Assembly (NCBI GenBank): GCA_947561395.2
Contig: OX387185.1
Span: 24,247,866-24,311,865, forward strand
Reading direction: 5' to 3'
Length of the DNA: 64,000 bases
Origin: Buxus sempervirens
Lineage: Eukaryota; Streptophyta; Magnoliopsida; Buxales; Buxaceae
The translations under genes were made by a program, and so were the position numbers. The notes beneath the pieces are model-generated. The model saw only the letters and a list, made by a program, of their open reading frames with translations. It did no database searches and was not told where the DNA came from. The number at the start of each line of letters is the position of its first letter. Position 1 is the stretch's first letter. Shown piece after piece: positions 10,604-41,530 of the stretch.

Positions 10604-11761
10604 TGTAAAATCGTAAATTTTTTAATATAATAATAATATAATAAAATAAATCTAAATATTAGAAAATAAATTATATAAGCCTAAACATATTGAGAAGTGA
10701 AGATTTAATCTAGGTATTGGGGGATTAACATTATAATCCAAAAATATATTAGCAATTAGATAAATAATATTAATTTTGTAATTAGAAATTTAAATAACAG
10801 CTTTAATAAATTAGAAAGATTAAATATAGATTGACTTCAAGAAGAGTTAAATAATAATTTATAGAAATAGAAAAGTGAAGAATTGATTTAGATGAAATGG
10901 CAGAGTAAATCTAATATGGATGTTGGGGGAAGATAGGTATTAATCCAAGTGCATGTTATGGCTAAGAATAATATGAGCATTTTGGAAGAGATCCAATGGC
11001 TAAATGTGAGTTAGGTAAAGAAAGGGTATTTTAGTCATTTCTCAATTAGTCAAATTAATAAATTGAGTAATTAAATAATTATTAGACTTGAAATTTTGAT
11101 TAGACAAAACTTGGGTTTAATTGGAATTTAAATATCATGATTTATGGCTTAAAAGAAGGAAAAAGGGTAATTATGATTAATTTGGGGAATATGGGAGATA
11201 ATAAGGTATTTAGGTAATATTTAAAAATAGGCATTAAAATATACACGAAAATTCATTAAATTAGGAGATTCTATTGTACAATTTAAAAGACAATGAGAGT
11301 TAGGATAAGGTAGGCAAGAGGGATTAGTTAGGAAGTTTCCTAATCTAATTAGGAATTCTAATTAGGCAAGCCTATAAAAGGAAGCGATTAGAAGGATTTT
11401 AGGGTTTCTTTGTTGGATCAAACGTATGAAGAAAAGAGGAGAAAAAGGAGTCAACGGCTGGAGGAAGTATGGGGGAGAGGGAGAGAGAGAAAATAAGAAA
11501 GAGATGTTGCAGAAACTTCCGACCAACCACCATCAAATTGCGATCGGGAGATGATGAACCGTTAGATCGACCTCAAATTTGGAGGTTTTGTTCTTCACGG
11601 GTGGTTCTTCAATCTGAACAGTGGAGATGATGTTTAGAGATCTCTAGAGTGGTGCGATAATAACAGAAACATAGAGCTATTTTCGGGTTCATTGAGAAGA
11701 TGGATTTCGCGTTCTCGAGGCAAGTAGCAAATACTTTGAAAACTGGAAGAATTGCATATTT
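10604..11761 (+). mobile_element. Family-A LTR E1, 5' part; interrupted by E2 and then truncated
   Basis: It starts TGTAAAATCG, like other family-A LTRs, and parallels E2: TATA box CCTATAAAAGG near 11,373, a leader with a GCGATCGGGAG segment, and a donor-like GAG|GCAAGTAGCAA at 11,720. E2 lies at 11,762, flanked by TATTT on both sides. The sequence after E2 (14,752 to about 14,775) continues the alignment with E2 for only some 25 bp. The 3' end of E1 is therefore lost. Confidence 0.75.
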
Positions 11762-14746
11762 TGTAAAACCCTGGATTTTCCTAAAAATAAATAAATAATT
11801 AAAGGATAAATTGTGGAGAAACTACTAAGAAATATAATAGTAGGGGGAATTAAAGAGAGATATAAAGGTTAAAATAGGAATTTAAAGAGAAAGGGTAATT
11901 TGGTCATTTCAAATATGTTAAATTCGTGAAAGAAAATAAGATAATTAATTATTTGGTCAACAAATTCAATTAGACAAGATTTTAGCTTAGTTGGATGTAA
12001 AATGATGAAATTAAGGCTTAAAGGGTGGAAAAAAGACCAAACGGTAATTATGTTGATTAGGGTCCAATGTTTAGTATTATGAGTGGATAATAAAAGTCTA
12101 ATTACAATTTAAAATTAGGAAAAGGTTTAAGCACGAAAAATTAATTAGGAGAGCCCTTAAAAGAGAACTAAAAGAGTTAAATTAAGGAGAATGGTAGAAG
12201 AGGGAATACACTTAGTATATTAGAGTAAGCTAAACCTAATTAGAGTTGGTCTATTAGTGAGGCTATAAAAGAAAGGTTTAAAGAGTGTTTTAGGTTTTGA
12301 AAATAAGTTAGAAGGAGAGGGAAATTCGTGCATAAGTGATAGGAGAAAATATAGAAGGAAAGAAGAGAGAAAAGAAAGGAGGAAATTAGAAAGAAGAAGA
12401 GTTGCAGAGATGGCCAACCAGCCAACTTCGAACAACGAGTTAGGAATATCCAACCGTTGGAATAGGCTGAAATTGTAGAGTTTTGTTCTACTCATAAACG
12501 ACTTCAAACTGAACGGTGGAGATCTAAATTGGAGAGGTCTAGAGGGGTGCGGTCGAGCACCAAAAACGGGCACAGACAAAGTTTCTGAAAAATCTGGGTT
12601 CATCAAAAGGCAAGTAGCAAAGCCTTGAAACTGGAGGAACTACATGTTTTCTTGTGATTTTGATATTTGATCGTATTGTTTTTTAAGTTTGATTTAATGG
12701 GAAAAGCTTATTTGTTTATAAAGAATTGTTTTGATGTTTTAACTTTCTTTTAGAAATCAAGAAAAGATTGATCATGGTGAGTTTAAACTTAAAAAGAAAC
12801 TCAAGATAAATAGAAAGATGATGGGATTAGTTTAAGGTTGTCTCAAAACTAGTTTAGAATGGAAATCAGATGTTTAGAATCAAATCAAGTTAATAGTATG
12901 TATAGAAAGTTCAAATATTCCGCAAAGAGAAGAAAAACATTGTTATAGCCGGAGCACTTGAGACACCGCTAGAGCAGTCGCTTGAGCGACCTTTCGAACG
13001 ACCAACTGTCAGAAATTTCAAAACTTGGGATTCGTGCCTAGATTCAAGTTTTAATAATTTTTCTTGAAATCTTGGGGTTACAACACATGTAAATAAAGTA
13101 ATTTGAGATGTAGGAAGTGACAGAATTAAATTCGGATAAAAGGGTAATTATTGGGGACAATGAATGTAATAAGAATCAAAGGAGACTAGTTAAGGTAAAT
13201 CTATGCACTCAGACCACTTTCATTAGGATTCTAGGTATGAAACCTAGTCTAACAAGTCATAATAGACCTAAATTAACTTCTGCAAAAAATCTATAGCATA
13301 ACCTAAAGGTTTTTAGAGATTTAGGGTATTAGTTGGTAAATAAGGATTTAAAAATAAGGATTTTAGGATGAACCAAAGTGTAGGATTGGAGTAAAAGATG
13401 TAGGAAATAAAGAATAACCTAAATACTGAATTAGAAAGATAAACTAAGTATGTCCACACTAACACGACTCAAATTTGAACATTTTATTTAGAATGTGTGT
13501 ATACTCTCGTACTTTTCTTATTAAATGACCTGGAACTCTGTTTAAGAGTTGTTTAATGGTTATTTTGAATATCTTTTAGTTGGACACCGTGGTTTTGGAA
13601 ATTATTGTTGGACACATCACTTGGGACATGTTTATGATTATTGGTACAAGGTTTATCACTGAATATTGTATCTTTGAGTTATTCAAGGTTTTGATTGTGA
13701 GTTGTGTCTAGTGGGCAATGCTTAGTATAGATCCATAGCTTAACTAGGAAGTGAAATAGAATTGGTTGGTAAGTTATTCTTGTTCGGAACTCCCCAGTAT
13801 GCTGTCCGTCGTACTTGCAGGTGCGGGCGACGTAAGCAGCAATCCTCGACCACTGCAGGTGCGGCCTGGTCCTTAGCCAAGGTTGTTGATTGGTAAACGG
13901 TTTTTATTTTGTTATTCAGGTTACCATCCGCATGCTTCAATGAGACATCGACTTTCACGAGCTTTATATTGGTCATGTTGGTAGGTTACTTGTGACTCGC
14001 ACGTTGGAGCTATGATTTAGCCGTGCTTGAGGATCACTTGTGACTTGCACATGCACTGGTATTAGACGTGTTGTCGTGGGTCCATTAATCTTTGATCGGA
14101 TTGGTATGGGCTCCGCGGAAGCAGTACCCTTGATGGGATTTTATTTTGGACTGAGGATTGTACTTGCCAACCCATTCATGGGTGGTCCACGTTGATGGTT
14201 GACGGAGGAGATGGTAGTGACTGCAAGTGCGGATTCCATCTATCATGTAAGTCGTGATGTAGCGAAATATGGGGCAGGAATATCTTATTAAGTGGTTTCA
14301 GTTCATGAGTCTTATTATGTCACACGTGTTTGTTTTGGATTGGTAATTGTTATTGATATATTATTGTATTATTGTGGTTTGGTTTTATCTTTCATCTCAT
14401 GACTATCTTTGTAAATTATTATGGACTGTTCTTACTTCATGCATCTACTACTTGTTGAGATTTTTTCTCACTCCTGTTTCTCCCCATTTTCAGGCACTCT
14501 TGGCAAGGACGTCATATTGTGGGCTAGTTGTAGCTGAGTAGTTTATATAGATGTAGGTTGCTCATGTAATTGAAATCCTTGTATATCATATTCGTTGATT
14601 AATAAAGAGAATTTGAATTTAAGTTTCCGCATTTACTCTGATTATAAAGTTAGAAAAGGTTTTAAATTATCCAGTTTCTTTAGTAGCTTTGTTTATTTAT
14701 TATAACACCTCGGATTTGGGAATGGACCCGAAACTGGGGCGTTACA
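11762..14746 (+). mobile_element. Family-A solo LTR E2
   Basis: The element starts TGTAAAACCCTGG, ends CTGGGGCGTTACA, and is flanked by the 5-bp duplication TATTT (11,757-11,761 and 14,747-14,751). Its 2985 bp hold a TATA box (CTATAAAAG near 12,263), a GC-type donor-like site AG|GCAAGTAGCAA (12,610), a GAGCGAYC cluster (12,950-13,000), the TAGTGGGCAATGC...ATCCATAG core (13,708-13,738), short repeats with GCAGGTGCGG (13,815-13,865), and a hairpin plus acceptor-like module (14,445-14,493). No coding capacity. It inserted into E1. Confidence 0.9.
14445..14493 (+). promoter_or_regulatory. E2 acceptor-side module: donor complement, hairpin, CAG
   Basis: CTACTACTTGT (14,445-14,455) pairs with the E2 donor GCAAGTAG (12,610-12,617) over 8 bp including one G-U. 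Then come the hairpin TGAGA-TTTTT-TCTCA (14,456-14,470), a pyrimidine-rich run, and CAG at 14,491-14,493. Confidence 0.55.
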
Positions 14747-14775
14747 TATTTTCTATATGATTTAGATGTTTTATC

Positions 14776-15429
14776 ATCTAAATCATGATGATTAGAATGA
14801 AATTATGATGATTAGAAACAATTAAAACTAGACAAAATATTTTAGATTTTAGCAACCAAAAAATCCAAAAACAAATATGATAAAACAGACCCTTGGCCTC
14901 TTTTAGTGACAACAAAAAAGGAAATGAGAGGATTTTCTCTCATCTTTTGTGGTTTTAAAAAGGTTTTAAAATTTTCCTTTTTCTCAACATTGACCGTGAA
15001 AGCAAGCTACAACAATTGGTCTTTTACTTCCTATCCATAAATTTTGTGTTTCGGATTCAATAACAATCAAAAATCTTAACATGGGTAGGATTAAAACTTG
15101 GCCAAACGTGATATACAATTCCGGCATGGATGTGTGCAACTTCAGCCAAGTTAATGGCCAAGATTTATGCTCATGGAAGAAGACATTCCTTTGCATCATT
15201 TTGAGCACGTTCAGATTACCATGAACTAAGAGATGATAAAGAGTTGGACATGTTTTTTTCTTATCAAATCCAAACACTAGATGAAGGAAACAGTTGTTTT
15301 AAAAAAAAATACAGCAAAGAATAATGGCACTTAGAATTGCTTGGAATTCCTCCTTTTTTTGCTTTTCATTTATTATTTGTTTTGTGCTTATGCTTTCGTA
15401 CTTTATATTCAGCAATCTGTGGAGCTAGG
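14776..15429. other. Unassigned sequence between LTRs
   Basis: No gene is recognised. A perfect 10-bp-stem hairpin (GATTTAGATG, loop TTTTAT, CATCTAAATC) lies at 14,759-14,784, just before this stretch. It may be a decayed transposon or host sequence that received LTR E4 at 15,430. Confidence 0.5.
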
Positions 15430-15504
15430 TGTCACGACCCGGAACCAAGTTTGCCCCTCCAAGGAACAACCCGTCCCAGACCGTGGCAAGTGGGCCATTA
15501 TACT

Positions 15505-17863
15505 TGTAAAACCCCGAATTTCCCTTAAATAATAAATTAAATTAGTAAATAATATTACCCAGAATTATAAATTGATAGAACCATTTTATTATTGTAGGGG
15601 GTGATCAACTTAGCGGAGATCCAGAAGTAGACGCAGATCTGACCGTCCGATCATGAGATATCAAGGTATGTATTCTGATTGGGCATGTGTATGGAATTTG
15701 GTATAGGTGAGACACATGGGATAAGTGAGTATAAGTATTAGGTTAATAACCTAATTCATATACGTGTATTGTCGCTCGTATTGAAGAGCCGCAAGCGACG
15801 AGTTGTTCAAGCGACCAAGGGAAGAAGAAGGAGAAGAAGAAGGAAGGGCTGGGCGTGCGTTCATCGTCCAGAGGATTCTTCAGTGCAAGAGTTCGTCATT
15901 GTGCATAATAGAGAAGGATGAATCAGCGTAGAGAGGTAGGTGACACCGTTTGGGTTTAAAATTCGGATTTATCTCTGTTTAATCGCAAAAGCATGTTTCT
16001 ATGATATGTAAAGTTGTATTTAGTTAGCTAAGCATGTTATAAATACATTAGAATGAGTTTAGACGTGAAAAATCGTGATTTAGAACTGCTTCTGTTCGAT
16101 TTGGTGAGACTGCCGACCTCGACTGTGCGAGGCGCTCATCGGCGATCTTAGGCGCTGGTTAAATACTCGAGGACGCCGTGGACCGCGGGACGACGGACCG
16201 TGGGCGCTCGAATTTGCACTACCGCCGACTGATGACTGCCTGGAGCGATCCTGAGCGATCCCAGGCGCTCTCAGCAGAATTTCCAATTTTTCATAATTTC
16301 GAACCTAATTCAATTCTAAACTATTTTTAGACAATTTTAATGATTAATTAAGGTGTTTTAAGACCAAAATAAACTACCTAAATCCCTGTTTTACAGAAAA
16401 ACAAATTAGGGAGATATTTAGGACATTAGTTGCCCAGTTTTGAAAGTAAACGAGAAATGTGATTTTGGAAAAGCCTAACTACCATTTGACTATCTAAACA
16501 CTTTTAAATGGCATTATACATCATAAGACATTATAAAGAGAGTTCATAATCCGCATGATTGAATAATGAAGTGAATGTACAGATATAACCATTATATGCC
16601 GCTAGGCACCAACCCTTATAGAAATATGATACTTTAGGGAATTTTGGAGTCTAGTGGGCATAGCTGGTTATGGATCCATAGTCGTAGCTAGATAGCTGAG
16701 GGATATGTCATTTGGGTTGAGTTACTCCTATATGCGACGCGCTTCCTTTGCAAGTTAGTTTGTCTGGGAAGGTCCTATGTCTGGAGGGACACCCCGGTGA
16801 GCCGCTGGTGATTCCCTGTACATGTGGATAAGCAACCACCTCCATGTATTGATTCTGGTGCTGCATGCTGGTGGTACATACCAACTTTGATGGGTACGTG
16901 TGCAATAAGTCGGTGACTACGGCTCTTGTCTAAGCTGCGCTGCATGGGGCTTGAGTATCATTAGTAGCATCGCTCCTAAGTCGCACGGTGGTATAGCAAT
17001 TGGTTGAGAATCATCTCAAAAGGTTTATCTAACTTTGTGAGTCCTACAATGACACTGAAAACATAACACTTGATATGATTACTATTGTGCACGTGCGGGA
17101 TGCATGTGATTGGGATATTGATTGGATGTGACTGCTTAGTACATCCTGGCAATGCATGGATTATGCTATTGATTTGTCTATTGAGATCTTATATTAAAAC
17201 TTGTTGAAAATCATTTCTAGAACTGTTTATCAAACTGTTTTGTGTTCATGAATAGTATAAATGATTATGCGAGCCTGATTTATCGATGTTGCTTTATCGT
17301 GCATGAACTGTTACTTTCCGTATATTAACTGTTTAATCATGCATGTGTTACCTACTGAGATATTCGTATCTCACCCTACTTCTATTCCATTTTTTTCAGC
17401 TGATACGCGAGAGGGGGATCTTTTAGACTTCCAGGGAGAGATAGCCGAGTATTCGCCGGAGGATTATTATTATCCAGATCTTTTCTGAGGTGGATTGATG
17501 TTATAGACTTAGCATTTTAATTGGTTTATTATCATTAATTGGATTTGATGTATGAGAGAGGCAAGAGAGAGTTAGTAACCAGTTCATTCTACCAGACTTG
17601 ATAATATTGATTGATGGTCAAGCTTCATGCTTGTTTGATGATTTTAATCTACACTTCCGCACATATTTGTTTCCGCAACTCTGATAGTTTAATATATATG
17701 GATTGGATTTACTTTCTTTGGTCTGGTATGTTAGTGATGTTGTAATTGATATGGGCCAGTAACACCTCGGATTTGGTTGTTGAACTAAATTCGGGTTGTT
17801 ACAGTAGCGAACCGGGTTCGGGTCGGGTGCCGGTTTGGACTGACCCGGGTTCGGGGCGTTACA
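15505..17863 (+). mobile_element. Family-A solo LTR E3
   Basis: It starts TGTAAAACCCCGAATTTCC, ends GGTTCGGGGCGTTACA, and has the perfect 5-bp duplication ATACT (15,500-15,504 and 17,864-17,868). Features along its 2359 bp: donor-like GAGAG|GTAGGTGACACC (15,936), GC-rich GAGCGATC/GGCGCT repeats (16,115-16,275), core TAGTGGGCATAGCTGG then TATGGATCCATA (16,669-16,680), GCTTCCTTTGCAAG (16,741-16,754), and an acceptor-side module (17,345-17,399). The last 100 bp contain two partly duplicated ends: CGGGTTGTTACA at 17,803 and CGGGGCGTTACA at 17,863. It inserted into E4. Confidence 0.9.
17345..17399 (+). promoter_or_regulatory. E3 acceptor-side module
   Basis: GTGTTACCTAC (17,345-17,355) pairs with donor GTAGGTGACAC (15,936-15,946) over 11 bp with one G-U. 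A perfect 7-bp hairpin with TTCG loop follows at once (TGAGATA-TTCG-TATCTCA, 17,356-17,373), then a pyrimidine tract and CAG at 17,397-17,399. Confidence 0.65.
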
Positions 17864-18170: not shown

Positions 18171-18223
18171 CTGAAAAATAAGATAGAAAGCAACTGTAAG
18201 ACGAATGTCTCAGTAAGCAACAC
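18171..18223 (-). promoter_or_regulatory. E4 acceptor-side module
   Basis: On the minus strand GTGTTGCTTAC (18,213-18,223) is a perfect 11-bp complement of the E4 donor GTAAGCAACAC (19,994-20,004). Hairpin TGAGAC-ATTC-GTCTTA (18,197-18,212, one G-U) and TTATTTTTCAG ending at 18,171 follow. Confidence 0.65.
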
Positions 18224-21200
18224 ATGCATGATTCGGTGAAAACACAGTTTATGCAAATATCTCTCGATAAACCGTGACATGCGGGTAGTTCTAATACTAC
18301 AAAATCCACGGCATCTTATGTGTCATACAATAGTGCATGCATGTGCCTCAGTGTACAGATAATCCATTTAATAGCAATCATATATTCAAGATTATCACTT
18401 GTTATCTAGGATGTTTATATATACTACATATGGCCTCATCTAGCTTCACCGATTCCACGTGGTGGCCAGGCATCTACGCCGATTCCCCTTGACGTAGGCA
18501 ACCATACGCCGATTCCCCTTGACGTACACTGCCGATTCCCCGTAACAAGTGGGCATCGGCCACCGATGATGCTGGTGCCAGGATGATATCACAATAGAGT
18601 AGTACAGTAACAAGAAAACCTGGCCATGGCATATATATACAAACATTCATGTTTAAGTCTATCGATCCATACCTTAAGGGTTTATTATGCGGGTGTGTTC
18701 ATTTATCAATTACACAACATGTATAACAACAAGAACGGAATAATAACACATCAAATATCCAAGCTTGAGTGGAGGATGCTAGTTCTCTATCTCCAAGTTT
18801 GGAGGAACAACGGTCCACTACCCCAACTGAGATGAACTGCTCACAACCCACCAAGACTTACTAATCAATTGCTCATATCAATACCCCATGCCACTAGCAT
18901 GGAAAATGCTCAAGGGTAACCCATGGCCTTACCCGAGTCAATCTTGAGCCAAGCCCTCTGCTCAACATAACTCAATGTCATTGGGGCCACTACCCTCATT
19001 CATTACTCATGGATTTGGGGCTACTGCCCTTCATTCAAAATCAACACAACGGGCCACTACCCTTTTTATCTCATGGTGCTAATAACGGGCCAACACCCTT
19101 GATGTGGTGCAAATGTAATACGGGCCAATGCCCTTCATACTATGTGTCAAATACTAGGCCGAAGCCCATAATTTCAGGTGTGGTGTACTCGCATTGATAA
19201 CCAATTGTAAATGTTAGGTTTTCTGGAAATTCTACATCTCATGACTCATTTTGGGCAACCTATGCCTCAACTCTTTTGATACTTGTATATCTTGGTTTTG
19301 GTTCTTGATTTCTACTTCTAAGGGTTAATTGGAAAGTGTTTGAGGTGGTGGATTCAAGTTATCCTACTTCTATAGTAATCTGGGACAGAAACACTTTCTA
19401 AGACCTTTTTCGGCAAAACGTACCCAAAATCCTTATTATTTGGAATTTTGAGACACTTCCAGTTGGAACACCTCCTAGACACCTAACTCTCACTTATACA
19501 TAGGTTGGATTTCAATAAAAACAAAGGTTAGTTCAATCTGGGCTAAAAGTGAAAATTTTGGAAATTCTGGTAAAGGCACTCGATAGGTCACTGGAGCCTG
19601 CTTCGAGCGGCCAAATATTTGCTCTCGGGTTCTTCTGTTATGACGATCGCTAGAACAGTTGGTCGAGCGATACTCGAGCGGCCATGCCTTAAAACTCTAC
19701 TTAACTCTACCAAAAACTACTACTCGATGCCGCGCTCGAGCGACTGCTCAGGCAGCTAGGCTTTTGACAGTTTGGGAAATCTGAACTTTTGGGGATTTCG
19801 ATTTTTCTCAAATCTCGCTCAAGCCTGATTTTTTGGGCTCTAAATTACTCCTAGCATGTGTAGAAATCTACAACCAACAAAACCTCTCAAAGATATCCCT
19901 CCCATTGGGCCTAGGACTCGTTTTCACATCTCAACCCTAACATTCATCTAACATGTGATTTTTGGCCAAAAATGGGAAAACAAGGTTGGGTTGGTGTTGC
20001 TTACCTCTTGCAAACTCTTAAGCAAGTTGTCTAGCTCCTATTGCAACTCACGAACAGCTCCTTGCTTGCTGGGTTTGACTTTCTCCTCGAATCTCCAAGC
20101 AAACCCCAAACGAGAATGGTTCCTCTTGGGTTCCTCTTCTTCTTTTCTTGCAAACTAGCACCTCCAATGGGTTACAAATAGATGGATGACGAAAATGGGG
20201 GAGAAGATGAAGAGAAGGAGATGAAGAAATGAGAGTGTAGGAGAAGAGAGGAAAGGGTTTGGGAAATAGGTTGGTCGTGTATGAGCTCTTCCCCTTTGGT
20301 TTTCCTCACTTAAGTGACTTCCACAAACACTAGTTTTTACAGTTTTGCCACTCTCCTCCAACATTGCATACAACACCAATACTTAGCATATTTTCTCGCT
20401 TTGATAACCCATTTTATTCAAAAATTTGAGATTGCTCACCTCCATAGGCATTGCCTAGCCGGGACTTAGCCACTTTAACTGGCTTTAGGCTTGAGCTTCT
20501 CCAGCTTCACCTACAAATCAAACTTACTAATTAAGGTGTGCTAGGGATATTGAAACGGGGTTCACACTGGGTTTGAGACATGCTCATCCGACTTACAACT
20601 TTCAAGAAAACGTTATGGACTCATAGAAAACAGGGCATCAAAACTCATAGAATACTCTACCATGCAACCTTAAAAAAAGAGCATGGCTTTTAGAAAGTAT
20701 CAAACTTATAATGATAAATAATCTAATGTAGTTGAGGATAAAAAAAAAAGATAATGAGAAATCCAAACTATTGGTTTCGTGATTGTACGAACTAACTGAG
20801 ACATTCTCTCTTCGTTTTGAATGAATAGTAGCCCAGGTCTTTAACTACCGAATTCATCAAATCATTATATGAAGCAACACATGATGATGAAACATAAGCC
20901 AGTTCATCATACCTTGAAACCTAGGCTTGAACTTGTCGTTGGGGACTTCTTTGCACCTGAGTTCCGGAGACTCTCCCTGGTTCTTCTTTCTCTATGAGCT
21001 TACTTTGAGTTCTCGTTGTGTTCCCCCTCCTTCTTGAGAACTCTTAGAGAATTGCTCAGAAGTCATGGAATGTAGCACCCCGGAACCAGGTCCACCCTTA
21101 TCGGGTTTATAGTGGCTCCCGAGCGCTAGTTTATGACCCAAATTGTGTTGAAAACTAACTTAAGAACTAACCAGACACAAAAATAACATCCTAAAATTTT

Positions 21201-21541: not shown

Positions 21542-21600
21542 CTGAAAACAAAACCGGTAAAAACAAAAACTCGTGAGACTAACGTCCCAGTAAGTAGCAT
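21542..21600 (-). promoter_or_regulatory. E5 acceptor-side module
   Basis: Minus-strand ATGCTACTTAC (21,590-21,600) pairs with donor GTAAGTAGCAC over 10 of 11 bp. The hairpin is GGGAC-GTTA-GTCTC (one G-U), with changed stem bases but a kept stem. A T-rich run and CAG (21,542-21,544) follow. Confidence 0.6.
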
Positions 21601-24600
21601 AATGTAGGTTATAAACAGTTTATGCAATTTTAAATAATAAAATAGCATGCTACATATCATACGATTAATTCTAGCAATCATGTAAATATCAATTCACATA
21701 TAACAATACAATTTCAGAAAATAAAGTGTGTGCAAGATTCATGAATTAGTGTGTCTGTAAATCGAGTTAAACACCCTTAGCCGGTTAGCCACCTCACTAC
21801 CCGTCGTCGAAGCCGCACACGGTCATCACACGAGTGGAGCACCCATGCATGGGCTGGCATGCTGCAGCTCATCGATCCCACACGACGGCCTCACCGATCC
21901 CACACGATGGTACGCAATTAGCCTGGGGTATTAACTCTACAAGCCAACACTAACGCACAATCTAGATGGACTGTGCATCCACGACTCTCTATGCGGCCTA
22001 GACTCGTATAATAGTTAACCATAAATATTTAACTAAACAAAACCTGTAAGAAATCAATTGCCCAAGTAAAACTCAATCCAAGTCAACCTCGCTGTTCACT
22101 TGCCCTTAAATCCCTAGGCCATTCTGCCTTTCAGGATGCCATAGGCTCATTACCTTTCTCACTAAAGAGAAGCCTCAACTTCGATTTCCGACCACACAAC
22201 TCAGAACATTGTATCAACCCAAATCATTAATGAATGAAGGTAAGGAGTAGTTCTATAAACCATTTCTTGAATACGAGTTAGAAGTAACTCAAGTTCAGGT
22301 TTGGAGAAGACCAATCCAAAATATCCACCGTTGGTTTGTAATCGTTGTTTATTCTGCCGATCTAGTTTTAACTACTTAATTGAATGCTAAACCTGAATTA
22401 CTCTATAATTAATTGGTATACATGCTATATATCGTTGGAAAGCTCTACGAGACTAATTTCCAACGCAATAAACAGTTCAAAATTCGGAGTATCCTACAGG
22501 AAGTTATGGCCGTTTTACTACAAGTGGTTACAAACTGCCGCGAAAACTACTGGACGGGAATTTTTCAATTTTTCTGGATTTTTCTTGCAATACCTCGAGT
22601 TCCGATTGGTCCCAAACCAATTCCATTCAACTACAAATACCCTAAACTAAATTTTAGACTACTATTATGAATTTTTACGCAAAGATTTCTAGCCCTCGCA
22701 AGCCATTGAAATAGTTACAAATTTGCGATAGCATAAAAAAAAGGGCTTCTATGTTTTTAACTTCCAACTTCAACTTCCAAGTATTGTAATTCCGCCATAA
22801 TTTATGAAGTCCACATTCTCCTAATATACTCAGGAAACCAGCAATTTAAACATCCATTAACCATCACAAGCAATCTCTGAAATTTACCTAACAACAGCCC
22901 TATCATTGTAACCTATGCATGTTGTCAACAAACATGATTGTTAATAGATAGGATTTCTATCGCATTCTAATCAGGACTTAAGCATATTGAAAATCCCCAA
23001 TACTTATTTTCAAGCCTGAACACCTCAATCAGAACCTAAAATCAGTATTTTCTCATGCCAAATCAAAACTTAAATTAGAAATCTCATCACAATTTAACTC
23101 AAAGACACCATACGATCTACAACACTTAAATCCGAACCAGTCACTGCCTATTCCTGATAAGATTAAACAAGTCAAATCAGGACCTAAGCTTACTTCAACG
23201 CCAAAACCAAAATAGCAACTTCACTCATTGTATACGCCTTTCAAAGTGCATAATCGGTAATTACAGCATCAAAAGTTCTAACATAAATCTGAAAACTAAG
23301 CATCGAAATTCCTAACCTATACCCTATTCAAAATTCGAGAAACAACCATCATCCGTTGCTATTAAATCTGCAATTACAGCAACTTCTAACCTAATCTAAA
23401 AAAATATACAGCAATTGGGTTCAGCAAATTTAACCTGAAAATACAGCCATAAAAATCCATCCAATAAACACAAAACCTTCAATTTTCGTGTGGTTCCATC
23501 TCCTTTTCAATTTCAGCAACCAAAACCAGCAACTCCGCACATAAATCTTAACAATTAATTTATCACAGATCAAAGAAAATCAAAAACTTATTTTCAGCAA
23601 CAAGAGGAGGAGTTAACGCATGTTGTAGGTTGTAATACCAAGGCAGAATCAAACAGAAATCGTTCAAAAGGAAAAATAGTGCTACTTACCAGATTTCGCA
23701 GAAATCCACACGCCCAATTCAAAACCAGTCACCCAAACCCTCTTCTCTTCTTCCCTCTTTCTTTTCTTTTCTTCCTCCTCTTCTTCTTCTTCCTTTCTTT
23801 TCTTCTTCTCTTTTCTCTTCTCCTTCTCTTCTTCCTCTTCTTCTTTCCCCCACGTTTTTCCCCTTTTTGTGTTAACCCCCAACAACGACCAAGATGGACG
23901 AACCAGAACCCCTTCCCTCTTCTTCTTTTCCTCTTTTCTTCTTTCTTCTTTTCCCTTCTTCTCTCCTCCTCTCCACGGCTTCCTCTCTTCTGCGATTTCC
24001 TCTTTGCCGCAAACCCTTGACGCCCAAATGCAAAATGGTTAATTCCTTTTGTTTCTTCTAATTCTCAACGACTAACCCCAAATACAAGATATCTTTCATT
24101 AAACCAATGAACCAGTGAACCGGTTCAATTAAACTTGAACCAAACCCCATTAAACCACTAAAATAACCAACCCATTCAAATCAACTGGTTAAATGAAATT
24201 TTTATTCCTCTAATTGTTCTTATTTAATCTATGAAATCTTAATTACAATTTCTCAAAATTCCGGGGTGTTACATGGCACCTTTCCATGCCATGAATGAGC
24301 GGTCCGGCATGCAACTGAATCTGGTGTACCCCCAACCCCCTCATTAAATGATTTTTTATTTTTATTTATTGACTTCTTAATTAACTTTTATTATTTAAAT
24401 ATTGTATTATTATTAATATTATTTATATTTTTTTAGTTTTGTCTTTACCTACAACCTTTTTATCGCCACGTGGTGTACACACAGCTCACACCACATGGTA
24501 GCCATGATCTGAACAAATTTACAAAAATGCCACTAAGACCGTTTTGGCTATATCTTTAATGTCTGACTCCGATTCAAGTACAATTAGTGATGTCAGAATC

Positions 24601-26595: not shown

Positions 26596-29186
26596 TGTAA
26601 CGCCCTGAATCCGGGTCTATGCAAAACATGCACCAAACCCGTACCAGAAATGCTACTGGGCCCAAAGCAACTAAATACTAGACAATTAAAATCAAACAAT
26701 TCCAATTAATATCAGAGTGCAGAAATTAAAATTTAATTAATCAAATAACCAATAGCGTGGTCACAAAATAAAGTCAAACCATCCAAATAAAATAAAATGC
26801 AAGTCTAGTAACAAATGGGTAGAATTAACTCTCTCACTCATAAACAAGTCCAATAATATGTCCATCAAAAATATAAATATCCGATAACAACCTCAAGTAA
26901 AAGAAAGTAATCTAATCAGGATAATAAAAATCCTCAACTACAAACTCAGGAAACTCTCCTCCCTAATAATCAACCCCGATCACATCTTCATGAAAGTCAG
27001 CTGAAAACAAAAACAGAACGCAGTGTGAGATACAAATATCCCAGTAAGTAGCACATGCATGTGTACACAGTTCATATATAAAAATAACATTCTTTCATGC
27101 TTGGCAAAATAAACTATTAAATTCACAATAAGAATCTCAACAGATAAACCAAGCCATAAGTCAAATAAAATCAATTCATAACAGTTCAATATATATAGCA
27201 ATACTGTGAAAGAAACAATGCCTGTCAATCTCGGCAAAATATCTCAATGTATTCCTCAACATACAGGCAAGCTAAATCACTGTATGTGAATAATCAATCA
27301 TGCAATTCTCATTGTTCACGTTCAATACCAAACCGATTCATATCACAAACCAATGCAAAATAATAATGTAAGTAGGACTCGTGAAGTAAATAAGTCTTTA
27401 AGCAATCACTTTGCATTCACAACGTCACCTTGGGAATTATGAATGAAACCAATAAACACTCACATACCAGCAATAAATCAATCTAGAAATATGGAACACT
27501 GGACATTGACTTATTCCACAAGAACTCACATACTTGCAAAAAAAGCGCGACCATAAAGCAAAAGTACTCAATCAAAGGAAATACTCCACTATCTAGCTTG
27601 ACACTATGGATCCATACTCAGCTATGCCCACTAAACACTTTGAATTATTACATTGACCCCATCACAAAGCCATATAATATCTAGTGGTATAACATAGTAT
27701 CCAATGCTTTAAAAATCCAAAACATATGCTCAATATACCTAAAACTCATATAAAACAATTCTAATCAATTCCTCAGCTTAAATTACATATAAAATTAACT
27801 TTTACACTTGCTGGAATCAACCAATTTATTTTAAAACAAAGTTTGGAACCAAAACACCCTTTTAACCCAAAACATGAGTTATTTTAGTAGAACGTATCCA
27901 AAATCTTTATAAAATTATTTTTAATCAAATAGCCAGTGAAAACAAGGTATAAACATTAAATTCTTATTGGTACGTGGGTTGATTTTTTTTAAAAATCATT
28001 TTATGAAGGAAAATTGCTCAAAAGTTCAGAAAACAGATCTTAGTGTTGACCACCCCCTTGCGCTTAAGCGGTGTGGTTGGACGGTCTCAGAACTAAAAAT
28101 CAGCTGAAATTGGAATGGGCACTCGACAAAGGTGCTCAAGCAGTCTATTGGGCAATCTCCAATAAACTCAATTTTGAACGAGCGCTCAACACTCGCGCTT
28201 AAGCGATCGTGTTGGGTGGTCATTCTAAACAAACTTACAGGCTAAGCTCAAAACAAGATCACTCGAGTGATCTGCTAGGCACTCGCCTAAGCATGGCTAA
28301 TTCCAAAATTTGATTTTTTGCTGTTTTCCCTTCTCCAATTTGTTTGACTTAAATCTATCAACCAAAATAAATCCAACACGCCTAATAACTCTCTTAAAAC
28401 ATATGAAATCATCACTATTACATGAAATATACTATTTACATCAAATTGTTCGTAAAACCACTAAAAAAAAAAAGAAAAATTTGCAAAATATCAATATCCT
28501 TATTCTCTAATGCATATAATTCATTCTAAACCAATATCCAACACAAAATACATAGATTAATAACCCAATACGTTCATGAATCCAAATGAAACGAATACAC
28601 GCAGAAGATCATGCAAGTAGCGATTAAACAGAGTGCTACTTACCTCTGTTTGCTCAAGCTCCAACCAAATTTCTTTTCCTCTTCCAAACTCACGTCCAGA
28701 TCTCTCTCTCTGTTAGCAACCGATTCCAAAACCTCCATGAGAAATCCTCCAAGGTTGCACAGCTAGGGTTTCTTTTGGCTCCCTTAGTTGACAAACACCA
28801 AAAAGAAGTTCTTAGGAATCTTCTCAAACTAAATCACACGGCCATGCACTTTGGAAAGTTCCCCAGAATTTCTAAACTCTACATGGAAACCCCTTAAGCA
28901 TATACACGTACGCCCACATCTTCATATCGGTTTCTAATTTATTAAATTATGATCAAGTGCTCCTCATGTGCATAAAACTCCTTATATCCACCAATCAGAT
29001 TTCAAATAAAATGATAAATAATGTTTACCTTTGATCTCAAGATCCAACCGTTGGATTAGCCTCAATTTCCAGATTCTCTTCTTCCACATGATCACCTATT
29101 CATACCAAACCATGGATTAGCAAATATTACCTTAAATATCCCAGAAATAATTAATTAATTAAATTCTAAAATTTTGGGGTTTTACA
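26596..29186 (-). mobile_element. Family-A solo LTR E6
   Basis: On the minus strand it starts TGTAAAACCCCAAAATTT (29,186) and ends CGGATTCAGGGCGTTACA (26,596). It has the perfect 5-bp duplication GAAAT (26,591-26,595 and 29,187-29,191). It is 2591 bp, with donor-like CAGAG|GTAAGTAGCAC (28,633-28,643), a GAGCGAYC cluster (28,050-28,290), core TATGGATCCATA (27,605-27,616) next to CAGCTATGCCCACTA, and an acceptor-side module (27,001-27,054). It is the best-preserved copy for the donor/complement pair. It inserted into T4 just below its leader. Confidence 0.9.
27001..27054 (-). promoter_or_regulatory. E6 acceptor-side module
   Basis: Minus-strand GTGCTACTTAC (27,044-27,054) is a perfect 11-bp complement of donor GTAAGTAGCAC (28,633-28,643). 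Then come the hairpin GGGATA-TTTG-TATCTC (27,027-27,042, one G-U), a T-rich run and CAG ending at 27,001. Confidence 0.65.
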
Positions 29187-31140
29187 GAAATCTTCAAACA
29201 AGCTAGCAATGGAAGTTGAATGAGCACTTTGATAGAGTTTTCCCTCTAAAAACAAGAGCCTTAACCTCCAAAACTCCCGCCCTTTAAAAGGAGGCAAGGC
29301 TATAATGCCCCGGAGCCGTGTTGTTCATTAAAGATATAACTTGTCTCATGGAGTGTTATGTATGGGCCCAACTTGCTCATACCAAACTCATATTCACAAA
29401 TATGAGTCATATATTAGAGTGCGGGAATTAAAATTTCTATTAAAGAGTGGAAATAAAACCAATCCATGAAAATGTATATCACTAATTAAGTCTGATACCT
29501 ACAATGACTAAGGATGATAATAATCCTCCTCTCTATATGAATCCTCCGGCTGTAAGACCCTGAAAATTTTCAAAAATTTAAATTAAATAATAATCAGTAT
29601 TTTATTGATAGTTTGTAATGGAATATATAGGTGATTATATTGATGAAGGAGATCAGGAGTTTGATGCAAATCCAACCGTTGGATCATGAAATAATGGGGT
29701 AAGTATTAAATTAAGGCTATCTTTTAATTTGATTGGTTAGAAGTATAAGATTTGATGGATGGGAGATACATGGGATCATAAGGATTAAAATAGGGTTTTA
29801 TTAAGAGAGTATATGACTAATCGTATACCTATTCTCTTTGTATTCTATTGCGGCTGAAAGAAAAAGGAGAGAGACCGAGAAAGGAGAAGAAGGAGACTAG
29901 GAAGGTTGCTGTTCTTGAGGGGATCCACGTCCAGAAGGTCTTGTGTTGTAGAAGAAGGGATCAGAACCTACACTAAGAGGAAAGAGGAGGAAGAAGAAAA
30001 CTTGGAACAAACAGAGGTAGGTAGCACACCCGTTTAGTCGACATGGAGTTTTATTGTGATTTGATCGTTCTGTATGATCTGGAAGTATTGAATATATGTT
30101 TTTGAAGATATTAGAGATGATTTCGATGTATAGAATGTTGTTTGTTGCATAAAAACTTGTTTCAAAAGTTGGATTTAGCCAATGTTTGTTGAGCGCCTGA
30201 CACGATCGCCTGAGCGATCTGATCGCGTGGCTCGCCTATGTATTTTAGAAACTTAGTCGCCCAACAGATCGTCTGAGTGATTGGGTTGAGCGACAATTGA
30301 AAATCTTGATTTTTAGATAGGTCGTCTATTAGATTGCCTGAGCGCCTACATTGAGCGACTGTTAGATTTTTTGGATTTATTTAATATATGATCGCCCAAC
30401 CAGATTGCCTAAGCGACGGGGTCGAGCGACCAATACAGAAATCTGATTTTTCTGAATTTGAAGAGTTATTTCAATACAAAATGATTTTAAATGATGTTAA
30501 ATATTTGAACTAATATATATTAGTGTTTACAATTGTTTTCAATGATCTTTTGTATTAAAAACAAATTGATGAGTGATTTAAGTTTGTTTGCTAAAGGTTG
30601 TCTTACTTTGGAAATAAAAGGATTTTTGGGCTATTTCAAAGTCTGATTTGAGTTGATTGTAAAATTCTTACTCAGTAAAATATATTTTAAAGTATCTTGA
30701 TTTCTGAACTTTAGTAGAATTTCACACCAGAAGCTAATTTGTAGAGTTATCTTTGGAAAAAGTATAAGCTTAGGAAAACCCTATATGCCACTAGGCACTA
30801 TTATTAACTATATTGGTTTGAGTTAGTTGTTATTGTTGGTGTCTAGTGGGTATAGCTGCATATGGATCCATAGGGTTAAGCTAAAGAGTGAAGAGGTTTT
30901 TCTTTGGTTGGATACTCCTAATTTGCGCTTGCGCTTCCTTTGCAAGTTTGTTTGCATTGGGGGGTCTTCATGTCTATAGGGTATCATTTCATGTTTGTGT
31001 TGCTGGTGAGTACCCTGTATGTGCGGATTAGCGGTTTATTGGTTACTGTTTTATTTATTGAGATAGTATCCTGTTTATTCGTTTCTTTATCGAGCATGAA
31101 GCATGACTATTTTTATGTATAAATTGTTTATTCATGCATA

Positions 31141-31197
31141 GTGTTACCTACTGGGATATTCGTATCACATCCGTTTTTGTTTTGTTTTGGTTTTTAG
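31141..31197 (+). promoter_or_regulatory. E8 acceptor-side module
   Basis: GTGTTACCTAC (31,141-31,151) pairs with donor GTAGGTAGCAC (30,017-30,027) over all 11 bp with one G-U. The hairpin is TGGGATA-TTCG-TATCACA with one mismatch (31,152-31,169). A T-rich run and TAG end at 31,197. Confidence 0.65.
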
Positions 31198-32959
31198 CTA
31201 ATACGCAAGAGAGGGACTTGGGGTTTGATACTCAGTGCGAGATTGTAGATTTTTCTTCTAGAGGATTATTACTATCCTTAGTAGTATAGTTTTGAGGTTG
31301 ATAGAGATGATAGATACATTTGATTTCTTATTTGTTTATTTTATAGATTTGATGACTATGAGAGTGAGAGTGATGGAACCTATTTACCAAACTTTGATTT
31401 ATTTGATGTGATGGTTTGGAGGACACTTGTAAAATCCCATATTTTAGTAATTAATAAATTGATTAAGTGATTAATATTCAGTGGTTAAGGCATTGGTTCA
31501 ACCCGGAGAAGTTCAAGGTGAACCGGAGGAAGGTGGGGAAACTATAGAAGGTGAGATTTTAATTCAGGTTAAGTGGGAAATTTTATTTGCTAATATTTAG
31601 GATTGTCCAAGTGATTGAACTAATAAAACAAAGAAACATTATAAATTAAGTGGTCGAACCCGGAAAGTGGAGGGTTGACCCAAATCAGGTTTCGTTTAAG
31701 GCTTTAAGTTTAAGGGTTTGAAATTGTGTTTGGTTTGAAGAAGGATAAGGGTAAGGCAGTAATAAGGGGTGGTTAATAGGGTTAAAACTAGTATGGGCAA
31801 AAGAGTAAAATAGCAAATCAATTATTAAACAAACCTAAACCCATGTTGCTATTCACATACAAAAAAAAAGGAGAGAACAGCCGCACACCTCCACGCACGG
31901 CTCTTCCCTTCTGTTAGTATGATTCAAACCCTAACCTCTTAGCACTCTTAGAGCAGATCAGAAGGCGGGAAAGGAATCGTTTCAGAAAGGATTAAGGTAA
32001 GGAATAGGACGGAAGAATCATGTTTTTAGAAGTTTCATACGTGTAGTTGAGTTCTAAAAAATATTTTGTTTGATCTAGACGAGATAAAGGGTTGTCTAAG
32101 TCCGTTTAGATCTTCTTGGAGGTGATTTCTAGAGTTGTTGGTGAAGGTTTAATCCAAGAATAAAGGTAAGTAGTCCCTTTAAATCTTGCATAAAAATAAA
32201 TTCGCGTTTAGTCGATATGCATGGTTAATCGGTGATTGATGAGTTGTATTCGTTATTTATGATGTTTTATTTGTTGGAAATTGTTCTAACATGTTTATAA
32301 AGTGTTTTAGAATGATTTAGAATGGATTTAATGCATTGGATATTGAGTTATGGAATTTTTATTGAATTTCGTAAACTTGCGGATTTTTAATGTATTGGGC
32401 CGCCTGAGCAATCGCTTGAGCGCCCTATACGATTATTCAAGACCCGAAAGCAATTTTCTTAGATTGAACTGCCGCTTGAATAGTCGCTCGAGCGACCAAC
32501 CCTGAAACGACCTATTGAATAAGACCGTTCGAGCGCCCCATCGCCACTCGAGCGCCCTATCTGTCAGATTTTTGGAAATGTGTCTTTCAACCTAGTTTTT
32601 CACTACGAAATTGTTTTTAACCAATTTTAACCCATGTACCATCAAGATTAGGGTATTTAGGGACTGTTTGCACTGGTGGATATTTAAAATTCAATTTTAT
32701 AAAGATTTTGAGTAGATGTTTCTAAAAAGGCACTTTTATTTGATAGCATTGTTCCAATCAATTCTATTATTAACCAAACTTGATTTTAACAAGTCCTACG
32801 CCTATATTTGGACTATCTGGACATGTGTTACACACGGATTAATTTGCACATTGAAACCGTGATTTGGTGATATGTATTTGACTCCATTTGTGTGGGTTTT
32901 TGGGTCACAATTGTGACAAGACAGGTGCCTGGTTTATTATTTTTGCAGGGTGGATTTGG

Positions 32960-33320
32960 TTATTTGTATATCCTCGGTCCATGTACTCAGTGGGATACTT
33001 CCTCAATCTGTGTACTCGGTGGGAAGTTGGTTATTGTTGTTATATCCTCGATCCGTGTACTCGGTGGGATACTTCCTCGATCCGTGTACTCGATGGGAAG
33101 CTGGTCATTGTTGTTATATCCTCAATCCGTGTACTCGGCAGGTTACTTCCTCTATCCATGTACTCGATGGGAAGCTGGTTATTGTTGTTATATCTTCGGT
33201 CTGTGTACTCGGCGGGATACTTGCTCGATCCGTGTACTCGGTGGGAAACTGGTTATTGTTGTTTACTTCCTCGATTTGTGCACTCGGTGGGAAGCTGGTT
33301 GGATACTTCATTGTGGTTGT
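32960..33320. repeat. 74-bp tandem array (minisatellite) inside LTR E9
   Basis: The marker TTATTGTTGT (or TCATTGTTGT) recurs at 33,031, 33,105, 33,179 and 33,253, exactly 74 bp apart. Each unit also holds two near-copies of CTCGATCCGTGTACTCGGTG. Because 74 is not a multiple of three and the unit lacks stops, all three plus-strand frames stay open for about 160 codons here. These overlapping frames are by-products of the repeat and not genes. Confidence 0.95.
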
Positions 33321-33424
33321 ATTTCTATTCCATCATGTATGGAATTACATTTCATTGTATCTGAAATTTATAGTGATTAACCGAATTAAGCGTTGCATAT
33401 TTTATTGTGGTCAATTATTTGCAT

Positions 33425-33480
33425 GACTACTTACTGAGATGTTGTTTCTCACATTATCGTTTTATCTGTTTTTTTTTCAG
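33425..33480 (+). promoter_or_regulatory. E9 acceptor-side module
   Basis: GACTACTTAC (33,425-33,434) is a perfect 10-bp complement of donor GTAAGTAGTC (32,166-32,175). Both differ from the family consensus at the same base pair. The hairpin is TGAGA...TCTCA (33,435-33,451), followed by a T8 run and CAG at 33,478-33,480. Confidence 0.65.
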
Positions 33481-33878
33481 ATATTCTTGTTGAGGACGAT
33501 GCAGGGATAGACACTTCTGGGGATTATACTGAGTTCCAGGAAGAAGATTTCTTCATTCCTTTATAGGTTTAGGGATCTTTATTATTAAGTTTGATTTGGT
33601 ACTGAAGGGATTGTTTAGATTACATTTATTTAGATGACATTGGTGATGTACATTTTATTTTACCCTTTCCAGACATAGTTGAGGAATTGATATTGGATGT
33701 TTCACTTTGCATTCTGTGCTTCTTGAAAGTAAAAGAAAAAATATATATGTTATTTCCGCACTATGAGATTATTAATTTAAATTGATTAAGTTTGGATTAG
33801 TTGTTTTAGGCCATTATCCTAACATTCTAGGATCGGGTTTATGTTCTTAAATAAACCTGGATCCGGGGTGTTACAAGA

Positions 33879-33889
33879 TGGTATCAGAG
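33879..33889 (+). other. Primer-binding site for initiator tRNA-Met
   Basis: TGGTATCAGAG lies three bases after the LTR end GGTGTTACA. It matches the standard plant initiator-tRNA-Met primer site and shows which end of the LTR faces the interior. Confidence 0.85.
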
Positions 33890-34806
33890 AAAATAAGATC
33901 CTAACCCTAGGTAGTAAGCCTTAGATGTTGATTTGGGGATGTGTGTTGCGCTCGATAGCACTCTTAAATAGGTAATCTAGGTTGAGAGAGCTTTTTCTAA
34001 GAAAATTTGCTATTGTTATTACTATTATAGGTATGCTTCCTTTTCCTCTATTTTATAATTAGTTGTTAAGATATGGCTTGCTAAATTGTAGTGTATAGCT
34101 TTCTTATTAATATTGTATGATTAGAGTAAAAATTATTAAATTTCAAGTTAGAAGGTAAATGAGGATTTTGAGAAACAGTGATTTTGAGATAAATGGCAAA
34201 ATGAATGTTTGAGATTGGTAATATGATTTTGATTGTTTATTTGAAGTGGAAAATTGGAGATGATTGATTAAGCATGCATGTTATTGTGTGCTTAATTGGA
34301 TGATGAGCCAGATGTGTATAGCCATACTTTAGTAGTATAAGGCATTGGCCAATGCTGAACACATACTTTAGTATTAAGTTTGATTTGGTACTGAAGGGAT
34401 TGTTTAGATTAATTTTATTTAGATGACATTGGTGATGTACATTTTATTTTACCCTTTCCAAACATAGTTGAGGAATTGATATTGGATGTTTCACTTTGTA
34501 TTCTGTGCTTCTTGAAAGTAAAAGAATATATAAATATATATATGTTATTTCCGCACTCTAAGATTATTAATTGAAATTGTTTAAGTCTGGATTAGTTGTT
34601 TTGGGCCATTATCCTAACATTCTAGGGTCGGGTTTATGCTCTTAAATAAACCTGGATCCGGGGTGTTACAACACTTTCATCCACGCTTGTTGAGTTTTTA
34701 TTGATGATAAACTTCCGCACTCTGATATTAATTGTTGAATGAATTATATTTATTGGTTTGGTATTTTGATGTTTTGGGCCCAATAGCACTTTGGATTCGG
34801 GTTGGG

Positions 34807-36130: not shown

Positions 36131-36142
36131 CCTATTTATAGG
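36131..36142 (-). promoter_or_regulatory. TATA box of LTR T4, with LTR E7 inserted just downstream
   Basis: CCTATAAATAGG on the minus strand. The E7 target duplication (36,124-36,128) begins only a few bases downstream, so E7 separates the TATA box from its start site. Confidence 0.65.
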
Positions 36143-36610: not shown

Positions 36611-36739
36611 AGAAAAAAAATCATTCTGCATTAAAAATATATGTATTAATTTTATAAAATTATGGATATATATGTATTTTTAACAAAAAGTAATTCTATC
36701 CCTTCTTGTATTTTTTGTGTAATTTGGGGTGTCTACAGC

Positions 36740-37751: not shown

Positions 37752-37906
37752 ACACACCATATTATGTATAGCAAAGATTGGGGTGTTACCACTAAACCCT
37801 ATCGGCAATGTTTCGTGAATAAAGGAAAAAATTCTTTAAAATATAAACAACATTGAATTTGGGAATTTGTTGCACCTCACATTATGGACTCACAATTTTA
37901 AAGGAA

Positions 37907-40900: not shown

Positions 40901-41530
40901 GGATCCATAGTCGAGTTGTAAGTGAATTTTGTACATTTTGTTTGGATTAAGTCTAGGGTTCCTTAGTGCATTTCCTCCATGATGGAGAGGCCTTCCATAA
41001 GGGAAGTGCTTCAGCAACTCCCTTTCCACCATGAGGGTGAGGTCATACGAGTATTTCCGCCATGAGGGCGATGAATTGGCTTGTTTGAACTGTTGCAGTA
41101 TTTCGACTGGATTGTTTGGAACAATAGTGCTTAGCCACACAAAATAAACAAACTTCACGAGTCCCACCTTACTATGTGGTTTGATATTGTTTGCCAGATT
41201 AGTCGGGTTATTCGGATTATCCGTGGTTAATTGTCGAGTATGTTTTAATCGTGCATGTTTTAGAAATTAAATAAATTGTATTTGTGCATGCATTGCTACT
41301 TGCTGAGATAGTTGTATCTCACTGTTTTGTTTTGATTTCAGATCTCAGAGAGGACGATACAAGCGGGTATATGCTTGGTTCAGGTTAGTTGGGAAAATTT
41401 TTAGTTGATTCTGATTATATTATTGCCATTTTATGTTTTCCTTACTCTGATATAGCGATTCTGTATAGAAAAGCTAACTCCTCGGGGATGAGTTGTGGTT
41501 TCATTACGTAACCCGGTCCGGGGCGTTACA
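37907..41530 (+). mobile_element. Family-A solo LTR E10
   Basis: It starts TGTAAAATCCCAAATTTTT, ends CCGGTCCGGGGCGTTACA, with the perfect 5-bp duplication AGGAA (37,902-37,906 and 41,531-41,535). At 3624 bp it is the longest copy. It has a donor-like ATCAG|GTAAGAAC (38,654) and, further on, the family motif as ACAAGTAGCAC (38,834-38,844), where the first donor base is A. Other parts are the GTGGATCCATAGTCG core (40,899-40,913), TTCCNCCATGANGGNGA repeats (40,968-41,075), and an acceptor-side module (41,293-41,341). The GAGCGAYC cluster is absent. No coding capacity. Confidence 0.88.
41293..41341 (+). promoter_or_regulatory. E10 acceptor-side module
   Basis: TGCTACTTG (41,294-41,302) pairs with CAAGTAGCA (38,835-38,843) over 9 bp. 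A perfect 7-bp hairpin TGAGATA-GTTG-TATCTCA (41,304-41,321) follows, then TTTTGTTTTGATTTCAG ending at 41,341. Confidence 0.55.

Follow-up and report, generated by a model that had tools for sequence, protein, structure and literature searches.

Covarying donor and distal motifs suggest a splice lock in the LTRs of a plant Ty3/gypsy superfamily

Known splice-site pairings and the LTRs of Buxus sempervirens

RNA helices that involve splice signals have been described in a retrovirus, in yeast, and in human introns, and they are compared here with a helix predicted for the long terminal repeats (LTRs) of a Ty3/gypsy superfamily in Buxus sempervirens. The LTR copies, designated E1 to E10, were read in a window, i.e., the whole stretch of DNA analyzed, of 64,000 nucleotides (nt) (contig OX387185.1, positions 24,247,866 to 24,311,865). 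As far as the available part of the source goes, the splice donor hairpin of HIV-1 has been proposed to mask an 11-nt 5′ splice site from U1, balancing spliced and unspliced RNA, and its covariation was examined (PMC4974535). Like the HIV-1 hairpin, the LTR helix would cover an 11-nt donor in the leader of a retroelement and is supported by covariation. Unlike that local hairpin, it has its partner 1.1 to 2.2 kb away, abutting a putative branch-point hairpin, and it lies within plant LTRs.

Yeast zipper stems, such as that of RPS17B, are helices placed at least 10 nt from the 5′ splice site and at least 20 nt from the branch point, according to the accessible portion of the report (PMC12350175). 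Both these stems, as that portion presents them, and the predicted LTR helix join the region of the 5′ splice site to that of the branch point within one molecule; zipper stems, however, are placed between the two signals without occupying them, whereas the donor itself would be paired in the LTRs. In human introns, pairs of conserved complementary regions (PCCRs) are long-range pairings that can obstruct splice sites and generally stay clear of branch points, and active splice sites show a depletion of complementary regions, in the available part of the study (PMC8052449). The LTR helix resembles PCCRs, as characterized there, in being a long-range intronic pairing, but it differs in that both the donor and the predicted branch point are apparently covered and in belonging to a mobile element.

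Splicing of the plant LTR element Ogre affects its gag-pol coding sequence. Both spliced and unspliced RNAs are described for Ogre, EVADE, BARE, and the sunflower elements Tyran/Varan in the accessible parts of two sources, where the isoforms of EVADE, BARE, and the sunflower elements likewise come from splicing that affects the gag-pol coding sequence (PMC12786077, PMC7730604). In contrast to all of these, the intron predicted here lies in the LTR leader and is furnished with a putative covarying lock. Among the literature matches listed, by title and start of abstract and with few subscription papers covered, none described, for retrotransposons of plants, an intron in the LTR leader or a pairing of donor with branch point. 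A paper on BARE, in its available part, calls it a major question how a single transcript of an LTR element is shared out between translation and reverse transcription (PMC3735527). With its defined cis-element and natural compensatory variants, a family of thousands of copies would make this division testable in plants, and, if the reading given below is true, a long-range covarying structure would extend over the donor as well as the branch point of one intron.

Covariation between donor and distal motifs

The preliminary description of this DNA had reported that well-preserved LTRs possess a donor-like 11-mer together with its reverse complement downstream. This was borne out: all of the quoted 11-mers were located at their positions, and six LTRs of the window (E3 to E6, E8, and E9) show complementarity of 10 to 11 bp between donor and distal motif (Table 1). 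The match is 11/11 in E4 and E6, 11 bp including one G·U pair in E3 and in E8, 10/10 in E9, and 10/11 in E5, where the exception is a C·A cell; the pairs of E3, E8, and E9 are on the plus strand and those of E4, E5, and E6 on the minus strand, along which donor and distal motif follow the normal order. The E2 pair reaches 9/11 (8 Watson-Crick pairs and one G·U), with a donor that has GC instead of GT. For E10, the local partner is weaker, the best GT site for its distal motif TTGCTACTTGC being GTAAGTGGTAA at 38139, with a score of 9.5 (8 Watson-Crick and 3 G·U pairs) and a loop of 3.15 kb. The exact complement of this distal motif, GCAAGTAGCAA, was found at 11720 and 12610, the former being the E1 donor, 29 kb away; the E1 and E2 donor regions can be aligned, and E1 and E10, judged from their letters, may be two halves of a single LTR separated by nested insertions. 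At another hairpin-bearing copy (35262, minus strand), a convincing donor was not found, the best score being 8.0.

Covariation was analyzed over 83 loci of one genome (676.5 Mb), chosen by the hairpin described below, by the donor GTAAGTAGCAC, by similarity to E3, or from the window; apart from members of the E3 and E9 families, the loci were drawn mostly from the initial 21 Mb of contig C1. The score is that of the best complement among GT/GC sites 700 to 2400 nt upstream (out of 11, G·U counting 0.5), and the permutations used 35 locus types, grouped into 23 clusters at 80% identity across the 440 nt preceding the motif. Scores of the true partners sum to 337, versus a permuted mean of 307.9 (standard deviation 4.1, maximum 325.5), and this sum was reached in 0 of 20,000 permutations; when each cluster was represented by a single locus, none of 4,000 permutations attained the observed sum. 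A best match of at least 9.5 occurs in the own region of 23/35 locus types, compared with 4.3% of dinucleotide shuffles and 1/35 when these regions are read in antisense.

In a symmetric count, the donor was picked by plain Hamming distance without credit for G·U (distance ≤2, with a clear gap to the runner-up). This accepted 66 of the 83 loci, 31 of them E3-type, which gave 25 pair types in 15 clusters with loops of 1124 to 2192 nt. At each of donor positions 2 to 4 and 6 to 11, two or more Watson-Crick pair types occur; position 1 is invariably G-C, and position 5 varies to G·U only. Covariation is thinnest at positions 9 and 10, contributed by the E9 cluster alone, and at positions 7 (G-C) and 11 (T-A), contributed by cluster 3 alone, while that at position 2 (C-G) comes from cluster 3 together with a doubtful E10 pick.

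Mismatch events, counted by cluster and position, comprised 14 G·U, 2 A·C, and 5 others at distance ≤2 (14:2, two-sided binomial p 0.004) and 15 G·U, 2 A·C, and 11 others at distance ≤3. As the mismatches are mostly G·U and not A·C, they favor a sense RNA over a DNA-level inverted repeat. The latter, a protein-binding site or the remnant of a terminal inverted repeat without a role in RNA, would fit the perfect inversion of the motif in some copies and the hairpin, which is also a DNA palindrome; it is very improbable, because a strand-neutral model predicts near equality of the G·U and A·C classes and because the match is limited to 10 to 11 bp, and the flanks of the window copies, judged by eye, contain no duplication. 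Neither the target duplication (on that inspection) nor the strand-neutral mismatches of a DNA transposon terminal inverted repeat were found. A terminal repeat read from self-comparison of the donor region with the inverse distal region was rejected, as it reflects the same 3′ module in oppositely oriented LTRs; the mismatch asymmetry also speaks against it.

A 45-row tree was built without the motifs, from rows accepted for complementarity (Hamming distance ≤2), except six E9 relatives chosen for bearing the pair; it leaves out E10 and most near-identical E3 copies. Pooled over positions, tree-independent pairs changed the same way in 11.0 cases and the opposite way in 0.5, with the distal side unchanged in 8.5. 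Descent from a single ancestral pair with no pairing constraint would be in keeping with the one 3′ module that the families share, so that many changes are shared by descent, and with the presence of 8.5 unchanged distal sides beside about 11 independent same-way pairs. Such inherited sameness is nonetheless scarcely credible given two Watson-Crick types at nine positions, the retention of pairs where donor flanks no longer align, and the one-per-cluster permutation. When donors are placed by the homology of their flanks to other loci, they score at least 9 in 21/22 non-E3 loci (L073 is the exception), a figure obtained after two off-by-one alignments (L053 and L054) were corrected and with references that had themselves been picked by complementarity; for several loci, the references did not agree on the exact position of the donor, and a further match, the 23rd (E9), fell on the adjacent E8 donor and was dropped. 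In the E9 family, the same 10-bp pair is present in 6 of 9 relatives.

Base pairing of the donor and the distal motif in the transcript is thus well supported by sequence comparison, since the covariation survives cluster permutation, recurs in tree-independent pairs, and is accompanied by strand-asymmetric mismatches; on the same grounds, the earlier argument from covariation to base pairing held up. The likeness of the distal motif to the 5′ end of U1, which had also been pointed out, is present but adds no separate evidence, because it follows from the complementarity of this motif to a donor. An alternative would make the distal motif a decoy or a donor for antisense transcripts, or a mask of the donor against U1, for example in polyadenylation control in the 3′ LTR. 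Its reverse complement does read as a donor preceded by CA, and U1 is known to control LTR polyadenylation in retroviruses; as covariation with the sense donor is not needed for such a function and the G·U bias is on the sense strand, we regard it as highly improbable.

The 3′ module, the host element, and a predicted leader intron

In eight window copies (E2 to E6, E8, E9, and E10), a stem-loop abuts the distal motif without a spacer and is followed by a U-rich tract and an AG; that of E8 is weak. Genome loci were recognized by this adjacency, so the evidence for it is that of the eight window copies. Stem variants include TGAGATA-TTCG-TATCTCA, TGAGAC-ATTA-GTCTCA, TGAGAC-ATTC-GTCTTA, TGAGATGTTGTTTCTCA, and TGAGA-TTTTT-TCTCA, and the stem is preserved by a T-A/C-G exchange at its sixth pair and by G·U forms. 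The 3′ arm mostly ends with CUCAC, CUUAC, or CUCAU, which we take to fit the plant branch-point consensus. The distance from the hairpin end to the predicted 3′ splice site is 22 to 34 nt in 24/24 pair types measured (one locus, E10, fell outside the filter). This site reads AG in 22 of the 24 types and AA in 2 (L052 and L083); with that qualification, the GT/GC donor, branch point, pyrimidine tract, and AG of a spliceosomal intron are present as far as the letters go. No Rfam match was found at gathering scores, the exact hairpin pattern was not found in IMG/VR, and the hairpin sequence was not found as text in papers. TGCA, mostly inside CATGCAT, occurs in the 10 bases preceding the distal motif in 64/66 accepted loci (17338 to 17344 in E3, and equivalents); a partner near the donor is not evident by eye, and it is a possible protein site.

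In GC donors, the +2 C meets G at distal position 10 in 4/4 cases (L069, L077, L116, and E2), all picked by complementarity except E2. L069 and L077 have the donor GCGAGTAGCAC opposite the distal motif GTGCTACTCGC, and close relatives have GTGAGTAGCAC opposite the same distal motif; the C-to-G match is likewise seen for the L116 donor GCAAGTAGTAT and for that of E2. In the accepted loci, +2 T meets A (46) or G (17).

The element that hosts the module was traced through E3, whose acceptor region has at least 40 places at 100% match (40 scored of 1592 candidates). Among 30 fetched loci, seven E3-type LTR pairs lie 7144 to 7297 bases apart, and the donor and the distal motif are present in both LTRs of each; ungapped identity over 1.5 kb between paired LTRs is 99.8 to 99.9% in five and, without realignment, 89% and 41% in two. 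Parts of the internal region were read in one two-LTR element, which contains a primer-binding site, a gag with a CCHC knuckle, split over two separate frames, and a 599-codon open stretch with reverse transcriptase, RNase H, and an integrase zinc-binding domain (PF03732 for gag, PF00078, PF17917, and PF17921); a single protein, of Malania oleifera, was obtained as a relative of its gag fragment. Near-identical LTRs with TG..CA ends, primer-binding site, gag, and the order reverse transcriptase-RNase H-integrase assign the E3 subfamily to Ty3/gypsy, presumably to a Tekay/Del-like lineage. Whether intact elements with gag-pol keep the pair had been posed as a check; two-LTR elements keep it in both LTRs of all seven pairs, with gag and pol domains read in one. 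These elements, the hairpin that abuts the distal motif on its 3′ side, and the GC donors facing G go beyond the preliminary description. The final bases of exon 1 vary among closely similar E3-type LTRs (CAGCGTAGAGAG, TTCGTGCAAGAG, and GCGTGTATAGAG; loci L009-L038 and L049), and the donor is fixed.

The family carrying the module has thousands of copies in the genome. GTAAGTAGCAC occurs 2747 times versus 109 for its reversed control, the adjoining hairpin pattern 5355 times versus 0, and GCAAGTAGCAA 3194 times versus 71, the last count mixing LTR sites and others (7 of 20 places read are distal motifs with a hairpin). Neighboring occurrences of GTAAGTAGCAC at 1 to 2.6 kb, judged by eye among 100 places listed, comprise 6 in plus-then-minus order, against 1 minus-then-plus and 1 on the same strand.

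With a probability of roughly 0.6, we read these features as a leader intron of the LTR whose RNA fold hides its own splice signals, that is, a lock that would slow or condition splicing. The intron would lie 5′ of the primer-binding site in LTRs of this superfamily, with its paired motifs 1.1 to 2.2 kb apart. In the sense RNA, intron nt +1 to +11, the site of U1 and U6, would pair with the 11-nt motif near the intron 3′ end, and the hairpin of 5 to 7 bp directly 3′ of that motif would end on the predicted branch-point A, 22 to 34 nt before the 3′ splice site. RNA escaping the lock would lose the intron, with 38 upstream ATGs in E3 (exon 1 has 1, with the start assumed at 15760, exon 2 has 10, and 3 follow after the LTR), and would become translatable, and locked RNA would stay intact as the genomic template. 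By retroviral logic, reverse transcription of a spliced RNA cannot restore an intron in U5 to both LTRs; if the intron lies there, an unspliced template would hence be needed to rebuild a complete LTR. Established at the level of sequence are the pairing, by covariation and G·U bias, the adjacency in the eight window copies, and the presence in two-LTR elements. From these we infer that the intron is spliced, that its branch point is the A at the hairpin end, and that the helix is inhibitory and balances the two RNAs.

The pairing had earlier been thought either to mask the donor or to bring donor and acceptor together. Its premise, base pairing in the transcript, is supported, and of the two functions, the lock is favored, as the helix covers +1 to +11. 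As a bridge, the helix would juxtapose the distant donor and branch point and aid the splicing of a long intron; G+1 is indeed set beside the hairpin ending on the predicted branch A, the accepted loops are 1.1 to 2.2 kb long, and zipper stems promote splicing in yeast, according to the accessible portion of that report (PMC12350175). We consider such a bridge unlikely. With its coverage of +1 to +11 and its end 14 to 17 nt before the predicted branch A, the helix breaks both distance limits of zipper stems and would presumably need to be opened before splicing, which favors the lock. Helix energies of −12.6 to −19.5 kcal/mol compare with −7.1 to −13.9 kcal/mol for the exon and donor paired to the U1 5′ end (10 examples, with the cost of the long loop ignored), and the E9 helix is only barely stronger than its donor:U1 pairing.

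A more specific form of the lock is tentatively put forward as a possibility. The helix at the 5′ splice site might form one continuous coaxial stack with the branch-point hairpin, G+1 lying directly beside the branch adenosine, in a preset geometry that would hold both signals until a factor or a condition opens the stack; it would be kept in many diverged subfamilies, including those with GC donors, in which +2 C is matched by G.

Several results weigh against the lock. Twelve of the 35 locus types score below 9.5 (L003, L080, window copy 35262, L055, L056, E10, L057, L062, L072, L073, L076, and E2), some of which may have a donor outside the fetched stretch, and the symmetric count rejected 17 of the 83 loci, some of them decayed and some with a stretch perhaps short of the donor. 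No scored pair was obtained for 3/9 E9 relatives, nor any pair within about 1.9 kb for 2/4 GC-subfamily loci, and two A·C cells occur, in E5 and L051. The exact GCAAGTAGCAA pair is not enriched, with 1 plus-then-minus versus 1 minus-then-plus neighbor at 1 to 2.6 kb (by eye, 100 places listed). Many of the state changes were inherited in common, and the tree is of a "quick" kind that carries a warning on long branches that meet, with rows accepted beforehand for complementarity. A search for genomic copies without the intron, made with a single E3 exon junction (one exon 1 variant) and allowing ≤2 mismatches, found none. Finally, a third helix, of exon 1 with the polypyrimidine tract/exon 2, was promising in two cofolds and was rejected, as 257 of 5,000 partner permutations were as good.

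Feature coordinates and neighboring sequences

Table 1. Positions of donors, distal motifs with their hairpins, and other LTR features in the window
Feature	Position	Strand	Remark
E1 donor-like GCAAGTAGCAA, GC type	11720..11730	+	exact complement of E10 distal motif
E2 donor GCAAGTAGCAA, GC type	12610..12620	+	aligns with E1 donor region
E2 distal CTACTACTTGT (14445-14455) and hairpin TGAGA-TTTTT-TCTCA (14456-14470)	14445..14470	+	AG ends 14493
E3 LTR TGTCACGACCC...GGGGCGTTACA	15430..17863	+	subfamily of young two-LTR elements
E3 donor GTAGGTGACAC	15936..15946	+	
E3 distal GTGTTACCTAC (17345-17355) and putative branch-point hairpin TGAGATA-TTCG-TATCTCA (17356-17373)	17345..17373	+	CAG ends 17399
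E4 distal GTGTTGCTTAC (18213-18223) and hairpin TGAGACATTCGTCTTA (18197-18212)	18197..18223	-	AG at 18171
E4 donor GTAAGCAACAC	19994..20004	-	
E5 distal ATGCTACTTAC (21590-21600) and hairpin TGGGACGTTAGTCTCA (21574-21589)	21574..21600	-	AG at 21542
E5 donor GTAAGTAGCAC	23679..23689	-	
E6 distal GTGCTACTTAC (27044-27054) and hairpin TGGGATATTTGTATCTCA (27026-27043)	27026..27054	-	AG at 27001
E6 donor GTAAGTAGCAC	28633..28643	-	
E8 donor GTAGGTAGCAC	30017..30027	+	
E8 distal GTGTTACCTAC (31141-31151) and weak hairpin TGGGATATTCGTATCACA (31152-31169)	31141..31169	+	AG at 31197
E9 LTR TGTAAAATCCC...GGGGTGTTACA	31428..33875	+	begins TGTAAAATCCC at 31428, GTTACA at 33875
E9 donor GTAAGTAGTC	32166..32175	+	6/9 relatives with same pair
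E9 distal GACTACTTAC (33425-33434) and hairpin TGAGATGTTGTTTCTCA (33435-33451)	33425..33451	+	CAG ends 33480
Primer-binding site TGGTATCAGAG	33879..33889	+	3 bases past E9 LTR; presumably a match to tRNA-iMet
E10 distal TTGCTACTTGC (41293-41303) and hairpin TGAGATAGTTGTATCTCA (41304-41321)	41293..41321	+	CAG ends 41341

A 74-bp tandem repeat of 4.4 copies lies within the predicted E9 intron (32967-33292), and the 3′ part of the E9 LTR (33577-33876) recurs 0.8 kb downstream at 34366-34671 with 93% identity. Open frames at 50610-52501 and 59777-61532, both on the minus strand, resemble by eye pieces of copia gag-pol and of a LINE reverse transcriptase.

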